Assembly: GCA_015521735.1 (NCBI GenBank)
Contig: WANQ01000010.1
Coordinates: 37,927 to 101,926 of the forward strand
Source: Pyrodictiaceae archaeon
GTDB lineage: Archaea > Thermoproteota > Thermoprotei_A > Sulfolobales > WANQ01
Reading direction: 5' to 3'
DNA: 64,000 nt
In this document: positions 2,784 to 60,672 of the stretch, piece after piece
Layout: each line of letters begins with the position of its first letter
Numbering within the stretch: position 1 is the first letter of the stretch
Notes under the pieces: model-generated
The model's database searches: none
Seen by the model: the letters and a program-made list of their open reading frames with translations, nothing else
Told to the model about the DNA's origin: nothing
Translations under genes and position numbers: made by a program

Positions 2784-4052
2784 ATGGATTTGTTTCTAGA
2801 TATACTCGTTAATCTCGTAGATAAGGTGGATTATGCTGTAAGAAGTTATAATCAACGATTCATAATACCAGCTAATGTATTGGATATCGATGACTGGTGG
2901 ATTAAACATCTCCCACAACCACCTAGTACCTTGCACACAATAGTAGCCGCCATAGATGGTGGTGGAAGATTTACTGACCTAGCTGGAGGTGGTGCATTGT
3001 ATATTGCTAGAGCAATTAGTGTATTCAGCGATGGCAGAAACCCTATAAGGATGTTGGAAGTAGAAGTAGCTGAAACTAGATCAAGGAAATACATGGATGT
3101 ACTTAGAAGCCTCATAGAGTTCAAGACAGCTTTAAAAACAGTAGAGAACATGCCTAAGAAATCAATACTACTCATCGATGGTAGCTATTATGTCAATATA
3201 CTGAAATGTCTCATAAGAATAGCTAAACTGTTACGTAAAGCTAGTAGGCTTAAAGCAAGTGAGGAAAGACTACTACTTAAGACCATAGAGTTATTGAACA
3301 CAATAGCGAAACTTAATAAAGAAGCTTATAGTAAGGATATAATCATAGGATACGTAAGTAAGGATTCTAATCTAAACGTCTTAAAAGAATACATCTTAGC
3401 GACAAGTATATGTAAACTGGATTCCAAGCTCTGTAGCCTCATAACTAAGACAAGGCTAGATAAAGTAGTTTATGATAGAATCCTTTCACTAACTGGGAAA
3501 CAAGATAATGATTTAAAAATGAAGTTACTCAAAATATTACTCGATAAAGACATACATGACGTAAACATCATATCTGCAATAACGGACTCCCTTATAGGAT
3601 TCTCCAAGCCAATAATACCCACTATAAATAGCAAATTGATTAGCTTACTACCACTACTTATTAAGGATCAAGTAAATATGATGAATGAAGCTGAGGATCA
3701 AGTAAACATACTTAACCTTACACTACCAATGCTATCATACGTTAAACTCAACCCAACAGATCAGCCAATAATGGTTGAAGCACTTCACAAAGACCTACAT
3801 TTCAATTTAACGAATACTAGTAGCAACATGTTAGTTGAAGCCGATGAAGCATTCATAGACTTACTAAGAGTTATTGTTAAAGGCTATGTTAACTATAAAT
3901 ATTATAATATATGGCTTGTTAAAGCCCACGAATACTCACATATGTCTAGACGTACTTTTAGGTATTACCTCAACTACTTAGATTCAATGCTAAGAACAAG
4001 GAATTTAAGAATACCTGTTACAAGGAGATATAGCTTAGGGGGTATACACTGA
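2784..4052 (+). CDS. nurA: NurA-domain nuclease
   Basis: VAAIDGGGRFTDLAGGGALYIARAIS NurA-like active-site region; overlaps downstream HerA. Confidence 0.75.
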   Translation: MDLFLDILVNLVDKVDYAVRSYNQRFIIPANVLDIDDWWIKHLPQPPSTLHTIVAAIDGGGRFTDLAGGGALYIARAISVFSDGRNPIRMLEVEVAETRSRKYMDVLRSLIEFKTALKTVENMPKKSILLIDGSYYVNILKCLIRIAKLLRKASRLKASEERLLLKTIELLNTIAKLNKEAYSKDIIIGYVSKDSNLNVLKEYILATSICKLDSKLCSLITKTRLDKVVYDRILSLTGKQDNDLKMKLLKILLDKDIHDVNIISAITDSLIGFSKPIIPTINSKLISLLPLLIKDQVNMMNEAEDQVNILNLTLPMLSYVKLNPTDQPIMVEALHKDLHFNLTNTSSNMLVEADEAFIDLLRVIVKGYVNYKYYNIWLVKAHEYSHMSRRTFRYYLNYLDSMLRTRNLRIPVTRRYSLGGIH

Positions 4053-6151
4053 GTGAGTACACTGGAGAACCAGTAGGTAGAATAATAGGTGAGTCAACAC
4101 CTTCACAGTTCACGATAATAGTTAACCCAGAAAACATTCCACCTCTTTACGAGTACGTATACGTAGAATTACTTGAAGTACCTCCATCTACTAACATGTT
4201 AACTAAGGTTAAAGTATTAGCTCAGATTAGAAAGATAGCGCATAGAGATATTACAACAATGAGTGAAGCGCCATGGAGTGTTGTGAAAGAAATCAATAAC
4301 GATATCCAAGGCCAAATAATAGCTATTGCAAAGGTGCTTGGATATAAGTGGAATGGAAAAATATACATGCCTAGACACGCTCCACCAATAAATACTTGGG
4401 TCTACCTCGCACCAGATGAACTAGTTAAAGAATTCTATAGCGTACCAGAAAAACAAGGCATACATGTTGGCTACCTAATATCTAGGCCCAGAGTACCAGT
4501 GTACCTCAATATAAAAGGTATTAATAGACATATAGCCATTATAGCTACAACTGGCTCAGGTAAAACATGGACAAGCATAGTCCTCATAGAAGAACTCTTA
4601 CGTAAAGGCGCCACAATACTAGTTTTAGACCCTCATGGAGAGTATGTTAAAATAAAGGATAGTATACATAGACTTGGAACAGAATACCTTAACTCAGTTA
4701 CAATAGTAAAAGGCCATAAGGATCAGGAAGGCGACATATTATACAGGGTTAGCATAAAAAATCTCTCACACGAGGAATTAGCTGCTGTCGCAGGAATACC
4801 ATCAAATGCTAGTAGGATAAGAACAGTACTACACGGAGTAAAGAGCCTTGCAACTATCTTAGCAGAAGCATTCAATAAACCCAAGATGCTATCACTTAAA
4901 TCACTAAGAATACTCACGGAGTCAGCTATAACAGCTATGGAGCATAAGTCATCTCTAAGAACATTTTATACGAGATTATCTCATGAGTTAAGGTTAAGGT
5001 TAAACTTAGATTTAGCTAACTTAGAGAAGAATCCAGGTTATGCTGAAAGAATAATGAATGCTGTTAGAAGAATATGGCTTGGACTTAAACGTGACGCAGA
5101 CATAGGCTTCGACTTAATAAGATACCTTGAAAATTTAGCAAGAATAGGTGTTTATGGGTCAAAAACCATATCCCTAGAGGAAATACTAAAGCCACGACAC
5201 ATAACAATATTTAATCTAAGTGGATTAAGAAAAGAGGTACAAGATCATTTAGCATACAATATATTATCAAGGATATTTAAGGCACGTGTAAACTTTAAGC
5301 GAGGATTAAAGGGAGAAAAGTACCCCTACCCCATTGTAGTAATTGTCGAAGAGGCCCATAGATTCGCGCCCCCCAAGTCTATAGAAGATACTTGGAGCCG
5401 TGAAATATTAGCTAAGATCGCTGCTGAAGGTAGGAAGTTTGGTGTATTCCTTGTAGTAATTACTCAAAGACCTAGTAAGATAGATCCAGACATATTAAGC
5501 CAATGCCAGTCACAGATAATTTCTAAAATAGTGAACCCACGCGACCAAGATGCTATAAGAGATGCAAGTGAACAATTAAGCCAAGATCTCTTAGAAAACT
5601 TACCTGGACTCAATCCAGGTGAAATAGTTGTTGTCGGCCCATTAACACCAGCTCCAGTAATGCTGAGAGTTAGAGATAGAGTCTTAGACTACGCTGGACG
5701 CGACATAGACGTAGTTAAAGAATGGTCTCACTACCCAGAAGAACTACATAACCTAGACAGCATTATAACACGTCTAAGAACAGTACTTGAATTATCTCTG
5801 GGAGTAAAAGCATTAAACCATGTAGAACTAGCTAAAGCTACAACACAGGTTATTTCAATGAACAATGACGCAGACTATAGGGCTTTTAAGAAAGCAGTAG
5901 AACTAGTTGCTAACAATAGTATAGGTAAAGTAAGATATGATGAAGATGTAGGATTAATTTCTGGCGAAGTCAATGGGGAAACTGTTGAGATAAGGTTAAG
6001 TGATGGTACATGGAAGTGTAGTTGCGGTAAACTAGATAAACCCTGCCTACACGTATATTCTGTATTCATTAAAGCAGTAACAAGTAAGGTTATAGATGTA
6101 GATCAATTAAAGAAATGGATAAAGCTTAGAACATTAAACATGCTACTATAA
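4049..6151 (+). CDS. herA: HerA-type DNA translocase/helicase with C-terminal SWIM zinc finger
   Basis: Walker A ATTGSGKTWTS, DPHGEY, VVIVEEAHRFAPP, TQRPSKID; C-terminal CSCGKLDKPCLH. Frame is open upstream of the track's ATG (4196), encoding HAS-barrel-like VGRIIGESTPSQFTIIVNPENIPPLYEYVYVEL; start uncertain (CTG 4049 or recoding from GTG 4053). Confidence 0.85.
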   Translation: MSEYTGEPVGRIIGESTPSQFTIIVNPENIPPLYEYVYVELLEVPPSTNMLTKVKVLAQIRKIAHRDITTMSEAPWSVVKEINNDIQGQIIAIAKVLGYKWNGKIYMPRHAPPINTWVYLAPDELVKEFYSVPEKQGIHVGYLISRPRVPVYLNIKGINRHIAIIATTGSGKTWTSIVLIEELLRKGATILVLDPHGEYVKIKDSIHRLGTEYLNSVTIVKGHKDQEGDILYRVSIKNLSHEELAAVAGIPSNASRIRTVLHGVKSLATILAEAFNKPKMLSLKSLRILTESAITAMEHKSSLRTFYTRLSHELRLRLNLDLANLEKNPGYAERIMNAVRRIWLGLKRDADIGFDLIRYLENLARIGVYGSKTISLEEILKPRHITIFNLSGLRKEVQDHLAYNILSRIFKARVNFKRGLKGEKYPYPIVVIVEEAHRFAPPKSIEDTWSREILAKIAAEGRKFGVFLVVITQRPSKIDPDILSQCQSQIISKIVNPRDQDAIRDASEQLSQDLLENLPGLNPGEIVVVGPLTPAPVMLRVRDRVLDYAGRDIDVVKEWSHYPEELHNLDSIITRLRTVLELSLGVKALNHVELAKATTQVISMNNDADYRAFKKAVELVANNSIGKVRYDEDVGLISGEVNGETVEIRLSDGTWKCSCGKLDKPCLHVYSVFIKAVTSKVIDVDQLKKWIKLRTLNMLL

Positions 6152-32056: not shown

Positions 32057-32380
32057 ACGAGTTTAGACGAAACCGCAAGAGAGAAGATAATAAGAATACT
32101 GATGAACTCGAAAACTCCTTTATCTGCACAAGAGATAGCTCTTGAACTAGGCCTTGATCCTAGGCATGGCGAAAAACTTGTCTACGAACATTTAAGGCAT
32201 ATAGCTAAGACAATTAGAAGGCAAAGTAAAGGGAAATTATCACTATACATGATTCCACCCAGGTGTAGAAACTGTGGATACGTATTCAAAGATTTAGATA
32301 AGCCTAGGAAACCTAGTAAGTGTCCTAGATGTAAAAGCCAAAGAATAGACCCACCACTCTTTAAGATAATGTCTAGCTAG
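32057..32380 (+). CDS. wHTH plus zinc-ribbon transcriptional regulator (COG3357-like)
   Basis: CRNCGYVFKDLDKPRKPSKCPRC; frame upstream of track ATG 32102 encodes T-S-L-D-E-T-A-R-E-K-I-I-R-I-L completing HTH helix 1; SD GAGGTG at 32043; putative ACG start. Confidence 0.75.
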   Translation, partial: TSLDETAREKIIRILMNSKTPLSAQEIALELGLDPRHGEKLVYEHLRHIAKTIRRQSKGKLSLYMIPPRCRNCGYVFKDLDKPRKPSKCPRCKSQRIDPPLFKIMSS

Positions 32381-49857: not shown

Positions 49858-50757
49858 CTATATTATTTTCTCAAGTCCTGCAATTCTCTTAAGTATATCA
49901 GTTCTTGTTACTATACCTATAGGTTTATCATTATCATCTACTACTAGTAAACGACCTATCTTCTTATCAAGCATAGTCTTGATCGCATCAAGTATGTCTT
50001 GGCCTGCCTTGATTTTCACCACATTTGTTCTCATATATTTTGTTACTGGTGCATCTATATCGTTTTCAACAATAGCTTTTGCTATATCAGCTGTTGTTAT
50101 TAATCCCACCACATTACCGTCGTCATCTACTACTGGTGCACCACGTATACCGTGCTCGTATAATGTCTTAGCTACATCTCTTATCTTAGAGTTCACGGAC
50201 ACTGTTATCAAGTTCTTTGATGCTATGTTCTCTATTGGTTCTCTAGGTATGCTAACTATACGGTTAATGTCTATTACTATTTCTTTTCTAAGCTCATCTA
50301 CAAACAATACTTTACCTTCAATTACTAGCCTATTTGAAGGCGTAGGCCCTAACGTTATATTGTCTCCTTGACTTATTTGGCTTAGGTCGCCAGCAACCTT
50401 TAGAACTGCTCTATTACCCATAGGATTAGTTATGTCTAGTAGCTCTATACCCAATATCCCTATGTCTAGTTCTCTACCATCCTTTGTTACTCTTATAGCC
50501 TCATATGTATGAGAGTACACGGGCATTCTTATATACTCGTAAGCTTTTAGTGTAGGCATATATCCGCCACGCGGACCAGTCTTACTCTCTATGAACCCCA
50601 TTGCCTTTAAGCTTGCAATTATGTTTCTAACCGTGCCTTCATCTTTACCTATCATTTCAGCTATATCTCTACTCTTAATCATCTTACCATACTTGCTGTA
50701 AAGTCTTATTAACGCGAATAATACTTCACGTTGTGTATAGGATAGTCTGTAGAGTAT
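49858..50757 (-). CDS. DUF293-type wHTH plus CBS-domain regulator
   Basis: CBS motifs and GTVRNIIASLKAMGFIESKTGPRGGYMPTLKAYEYI; upstream frame encodes LYRLSYTQREVLFALIRLYSKYGKM; SD GAGGTG at 50765-50770; putative ATA start 50757 (track ATG 50682). Confidence 0.8.
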   Translation of the reverse strand: MLYRLSYTQREVLFALIRLYSKYGKMIKSRDIAEMIGKDEGTVRNIIASLKAMGFIESKTGPRGGYMPTLKAYEYIRMPVYSHTYEAIRVTKDGRELDIGILGIELLDITNPMGNRAVLKVAGDLSQISQGDNITLGPTPSNRLVIEGKVLFVDELRKEIVIDINRIVSIPREPIENIASKNLITVSVNSKIRDVAKTLYEHGIRGAPVVDDDGNVVGLITTADIAKAIVENDIDAPVTKYMRTNVVKIKAGQDILDAIKTMLDKKIGRLLVVDDNDKPIGIVTRTDILKRIAGLEKII

Positions 50758-52303: not shown

Positions 52304-52381
52304 AGCGGGGTAGGGTAGCCAGGTTAGCCCGCGGGGCTCATAACCCCGAGGTCGGTGGTTCAAATCCACCCCCCGCTACCA
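52304..52381 (+). tRNA. Initiator tRNA-Met(CAT), CCA encoded
   Basis: AGCGGGG/CCCCGCT acceptor (A1-U72), GGGGCTCATAACCCC anticodon arm with three G-C pairs, GGTTCAAATCC. Confidence 0.9.
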
Positions 52382-59976: not shown

Positions 59977-60102
59977 TCCTTCAATTAAATACAATACAAC
60001 ATAATTTTTAAAGGTTATTTACTTCCATACCCTAACCCTATTTCTGGAGAGATAGTAAATGTGAAAGAGTAAAAGCATAGACCATGCAGTGAGGTGTAAG
60101 CA

Positions 60103-60672
60103 ACGAATAGAAGAACACTATACTATTGGAGAACTTCAACATACCTGACACATGGACTAGGCTTTCTATACGTAGCATTACCGAGTCAACCCTATGTTCC
60201 CTGGGTTCCTACACGTGATAAAGTAATAGATAGAATATTTAAGCTAGTCGAGTTAACCGATAAGGATGTTTTCTACGACCTAGGCTGCGGAGATGGAAGA
60301 GTAGCTATTGAGGCTGCCAAGAGATATGGAGCTAAATCTGTTTGTATAGAGATAAGACAAGATCTTGTAGCAAAAGCTATTGAAAAAGTAAGGAGAGAAG
60401 GATTAGAGGATAGAGTAAGGGTAATCCACGGTAATTTCTTTGAAATACCTTTAACTAATGCTACAGTAGTTTACATGTATTTACTAACAAGCGTTAATAG
60501 ATTGTTGAAGCCTAAGCTTAAGAAAGAACTTAGAATAGGCACCAGAATAGTCACCCTAGACTTCGAGATACCTGGATGGAGGCCAGTACATGTTGAAGAT
60601 AGTGGTGGATGGCAAGGAACAATATACTTATATGTTAAAGGCGTTTCAGACATATACGATGAAGAACAATGA
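60103..60672 (+). CDS. Class I SAM-dependent methyltransferase
   Basis: VFYDLGCGDGRVAIEAAKRYGAKSVCIEI; frame open from in-frame TAA 60097; first ATG/GTG/TTG is 60475, beyond motif I; SD GAGGTG 60091-60096, putative ACG start 60103. Confidence 0.85.
   Translation, partial: TNRRTLYYWRTSTYLTHGLGFLYVALPSQPYVPWVPTRDKVIDRIFKLVELTDKDVFYDLGCGDGRVAIEAAKRYGAKSVCIEIRQDLVAKAIEKVRREGLEDRVRVIHGNFFEIPLTNATVVYMYLLTSVNRLLKPKLKKELRIGTRIVTLDFEIPGWRPVHVEDSGGWQGTIYLYVKGVSDIYDEEQ

Follow-up and report, generated by a model that had tools for sequence, protein, structure and literature searches.

In the archaeal genome studied here, translation of about 1% of genes probably begins at AUA, AUU, ACG or CUG, nearly always about 7 nt after a near-perfect Shine–Dalgarno (SD) sequence. 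The habit is probably shared across the lineage, with AUC in the sister genus. In the window, by which we mean the whole stretch of 64,000 nucleotides that was analysed, a methyltransferase gene fits this pattern. We consider it likely that the gene is translated from a near-cognate codon, with the ACG at 60103 as the most likely start. Other candidates exist, but this ACG is the best of them, and we infer its use from its position relative to the SD and from the recurrence of the same arrangement in other genes (Table 1).

The methyltransferase frame is open from 60100 to 60672 (190 codons); it contains no stop, and the other two frames contain 18 and 13 stops over the same stretch. The first-pass annotation had reported that this frame runs without ATG, GTG or TTG from an in-frame TAA to the ATG at 60475, and this was reproduced exactly; that ATG is codon 125 counted from 60100, or 124 codons from the ACG. 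Its description of a strong SD 6 nt before the ACG also held, as did its remark that the GTG within the SD cannot be used, given the TAA that directly follows. The spacer (TAAGCA) compares with a genome-wide spacing mode of 7 nt (5–9). All duplex energies given here assume an anti-SD sequence taken from crenarchaeal 16S, and 16S rRNA was not found in the readable contigs of this genome (C2, C32 and C40 are all N). Residues 2–15 of a protein started at the ACG would be NRRTLYYWRTSTY.

Table 1 Features of the window that bear on start-codon use.
Feature	Positions	Strand	Evidence or remark
HerA-like ATPase, probable CTG start (4049–4051)	4049–6151	+	Weak SD AGGGGGT; weakest case
COG3357-like HTH regulator, ACG start (32057–32059)	32057–32380	+	SD TGAGGTGA 8 nt upstream
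HrcA-DNA-binding/CBS regulator, ATA start (50757–50755)	49858–50757	-	SD GAGGTGA 7 nt upstream
Initiator tRNA-Met	52304–52381	+	Normal CAU anticodon, A1-U72
SD GAGGTG (within TGAGGTG, 60090–60096)	60091–60096	+	6 nt before ACG; anti-SD duplex −10.5 kcal/mol
In-frame TAA	60097–60099	+	Closes methyltransferase frame on its upstream side
ACG, most likely start codon	60103–60105	+	Position relative to SD; no earlier in-frame canonical codon; pattern recurs in other genes
Class I SAM methyltransferase, relative of archaeal protein-lysine methyltransferase (aKMT)	60103–60672	+	Profile and structure matches; dN/dS
CTG, alternative start	60145–60147	+	No SD (duplex −3.5 kcal/mol); overlaps TGA 60146–60148 of 19-codon upstream ORF from GTG 60089
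ATG, first canonical codon in frame, beyond SAM motif; rejected as start	60475–60477	+	

Judging by purifying selection, translation of the methyltransferase gene begins before 60475. Scanning genomes with the protein as query gave as close relatives only two sister-genus metagenome-assembled genomes (MAGs) and one partial sister copy, all from Desulfurococcales MAGs, and no second copy of the window species. The comparison used the orthologues in the two sister MAGs (G001 and G003). Over the 107 codons that precede ATG 60475, protein identity is 77–79%, dN is 0.17–0.19 and dS is 1.53–1.55 (dN/dS ~0.11), with nucleotide differences mostly at third positions (22/13/51 by codon position). The alignment is ungapped from the motif GLGF (codon index 18) across 168 compared codons. 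This selection rules out ATG 60475 as the start, and aligning the residues before it to homologues, a check put forward in the first-pass annotation, thus came out in favour of its reading.

Where upstream translation begins is less sharply defined by the relatives. Both sister MAGs have two ATGs, at the columns of window codons 11 and 13 from 60100 (here AGA and TCA). These ordinary starts lie 9–11 codons downstream of the window ACG, and the start-column agreement that supports other genes is absent from the methyltransferase. Neither of these ATGs is present in the window gene, and a start at ACG would add about 10 residues; residues 2–12 are unconserved, and the coding signal becomes clear no earlier than codon 16–18. 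The main rival to the ACG is the CTG at 60145, which shares nucleotides with the stop codon of a short ORF that begins upstream: ribosomes that had translated the 19 codons from GTG 60089, which is one base out of the methyltransferase frame, could reinitiate there through the overlap CTGA. This CTG sits 3–5 codons downstream of the sister-genus ATG columns, near the onset of the coding signal. However, neither the CTG nor the upstream ORF has an SD of its own, and a start at the CTG leaves the strong SD before the ACG unexplained, so that we regard reinitiation as unlikely. In methyltransferase orthologues of genus g25 (L050, L051 and L055), conservation seems to extend to residues (EELGWIA-like) ahead of the only canonical codon nearby, so that a non-canonical start is possible in these genes too; an ACG is common to L050 and L055.

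The genome-wide analysis covered 1.81 Mb of the 2.03-Mb genome, on which a dicodon gene model was trained (1,662 genes). Of the strong SDs at ORF starts, 174 precede a canonical start, with a spacing mode of 7 nt, and 22 have no in-frame canonical start after them. The codon nearest to 7 nt from these 22 orphan SDs was ATA in six, ACG and CTG in three each, ATT and GTT in two each, and TTA, AAG, CCT, GCC, ACT and AGT once each. Codons of the set ATA, ATT, ATC, ACG and CTG occupied the modal position in 14 of 22 cases, compared with 8 of 88 neighbouring in-frame codons (Fisher P = 2.8 × 10−7; binomial P = 2.7 × 10−9). The scan that the first-pass annotation had suggested, for SDs 5–9 nt before ACG, ATA, CTG or ATT, therefore bears out its pattern over 1.81 Mb and under a positional control. 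From the gene model, 7 of the 1,662 genes lack a canonical start in at least 60 coding codons (contig edges excluded), and 6 of them carry a near-cognate codon 4–7 nt after a GGTG-type SD. The remaining one (G000:C44:4493-7864, minus strand) is a long ATPase-like ORF with 114 codons without a canonical start and no visible SD, possibly a pseudogene or a leaderless case. With weaker cases included, the window genome has about 20 genes (roughly 1%) whose sequences fit a near-cognate start.

In a 346-kb sample of the sister genus, 35 SDs led to a canonical start and 6 were orphans; the latter include ATA in the gene for ribosomal protein L12 and ATC in that for the CBS regulator. For other families, the comparison covers orthologue loci and 64 short control loci. 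Pooled, the control loci had 13 canonical and 2 orphan SDs, with a near-cognate codon at 7 nt in 0 of 2, too small a sample for a comparison of rates. TTA occurs 6–7 nt from orphan SDs at G000:C5:18572, C23:72067 and G001:C26:745, and GTT does so at G000:C10:45844 and C16:3908, which suggests that these two codons, differing from TTG and GTG in the third position, may start translation too. An archaeal release factor aRF1-like protein of the sister genus (G001:C218:51790-52893, minus strand) has 29 codons without a canonical start (GAGGGATGA then GTA TTT AGC).

Orthologues place the start at, or close to, the near-cognate codon in several genes. Agreement of start columns was found for L12, the CBS regulator, the COG3357-like regulator, C30:23118 and C23:67541. 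At C30:23118 (GHMP-kinase-like by inspection) the ACG shares its column with the ATG of three sister MAGs, and at C23:67541 the ACG shares its column with a sister-genus ATG. Codons within one codon of the orthologue start (window/orthologue) are found at C15:9746 (CTG/ATG), C3:31420 (ATT/ATG), C43:19973 (ATA/ATG), C26:15304 (ATA/ATG) and C41:118684 (CTG/TTG). Three further genes in the window had been named in the first-pass annotation as showing the same picture as the methyltransferase. Two of them stand: the ACG of the COG3357-like gene lies in the column of the TTG of three sister-genus MAGs, and the ATA of the CBS regulator lies in the column of an ATC in the sister genus (G001, G002 and G003). 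That ATC also occurs in a 91% identical copy from a MAG filed in another family (G139), and 25 orthologues of other families carry ATG, GTG or TTG near the same place. The third, the HerA-like ATPase, is plausible, with a CTG where the sister genus has a TTG in the same region, but its SD is weak. Together, purifying selection upstream of 60475, the positional control and the orthologue columns support near-cognate initiation, as had been proposed.

Alignments place the start of L12 at ATA or ATC in at least four related families. The gene has ATA and no canonical start in the window genome (G000:C9:2704-3027) and in two sister-genus MAGs (G001 and G002), that is, in both genera. Most families of the order have ATG in this column (MEYIYA); it is ATA in G012 (family f10) and in G010, G039, G047 and G056 (f8), and ATC in G021 (f9). 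The genes from f8, f9 and f10 have no canonical start upstream and have SDs such as GGAGGTGA; G010 and G021 are single-contig genomes. Orthologue loci with ATA or ATC are L256-L258, L260, L262-L264, L268 and L284. The genome paper of Staphylothermus marinus (PMC2678158) likewise describes an L12ae gene that has no valid start codon and whose apparent first codon is ATC. The occurrence of these codons in independent assemblies, together with that report, excludes assembly error as a general explanation.

For the methyltransferase itself, only one assembly of the window species is available, and a local error in this gene alone is possible: a base lost or substituted near 60100 could conceal a canonical start, and GTG 60089 is out of frame by just one base. 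Against this, some 20 genes in the genome are arranged alike, with equal SD spacing, L12 and the CBS regulator lack canonical starts in independent assemblies, and random error would not put near-cognate codons at the position that the SD defines; we therefore judge such an error to be quite improbable. Editing of C to U in the RNA, which converts ACG to AUG in plant chloroplasts, would account for the three orphan SDs with ACG at the modal spacing, but ATA is the commonest near-cognate codon and neither it nor ATT, CTG or ATC would become AUG in this way, which leaves editing very improbable. Least probable of all is a pseudogene that has lost its start codon: the sister genus does have a canonical start, but the window gene retains 190 codons without a stop, a low dN/dS against that genus and its strong SD.

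We propose that initiation at the ACG would be led by the SD. The strong helix (UGAGGUG) would hold the 30S subunit so that the ACG occupies the P site and pairs there, with one mismatch, with the ordinary CAU initiator tRNA; the product should start with methionine. We infer that SD strength makes up for the mismatched codon, because aIF1 is present and the initiator tRNA gene is ordinary. An unusual initiator tRNA was rejected at the gene level, as the anticodon, the A1-U72 pair and the G-C pairs of the anticodon stem are all normal. Loss of the fidelity factor aIF1 was rejected as well; a SUI1 protein was found in the window genome and in its three relatives.

Archaeal start rules are treated as ATG, GTG and TTG, and gene callers built on them truncate or miss proteins such as these, including the essential L12; to our knowledge, ACG is absent from the start list of NCBI table 11. 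The SD-led pattern gives a simple rule for re-annotation, and a lineage with about 1% near-cognate starts is a natural system for studying how SD strength, aIF1 and initiator tRNA set start-codon fidelity. We found no description of a genome-wide near-cognate pattern in the open-licence literature, which is not proof of absence. A broader reading, which we offer tentatively, is that this archaeal family relaxes start-codon stringency as a rule: a near-perfect SD might replace codon identity, AUA, AUU, AUC, ACG and CUG might be regular starts, UUA and GUU possibly among them, and AUA or AUC in L12 of four families might be a conserved regulatory feature comparable to that of infC.

The methyltransferase belongs to class I SAM methyltransferases by its Rossmann motif I (DLGCGDG) and a match to Pfam Methyltransf_25 (1.6 × 10−10). 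Its nearest solved structure is 5fa8 (2.3 × 10−44, aligned from residue 30), deposited as a putative L11 methyltransferase and a close match to 5jwj (protein-lysine N-methyltransferase). It resembles aKMT (PDB 5fa8, NCBIfam NF041081) in sequence over residues 30–181; it differs in about 25 extra N-terminal residues and in an NF041081 score of 145.1 bits, which is below the curated cut-off of 200 for archaeal protein-lysine methyltransferases. Other members of the aKMT family are present in the same genome (L005 and L010).

The closest precedent for the starts is L12ae of S. marinus (Smar_1096), a crenarchaeal gene without a canonical start, and the same L12 gene as here, in which ATC was inferred by alignment (PMC2678158). 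It was noted there as a lone gene, whereas about 20 genes in one genome are concerned here, including ACG and CTG starts. Bacterial infC starts at AUU and is autoregulated by IF3. The likeness to L12 lies in a near-cognate start behind an SD in a gene of the translation apparatus; the differences are that autoregulation is a feature of infC and that archaeal initiation uses aIF1, aIF1A and aIF2.
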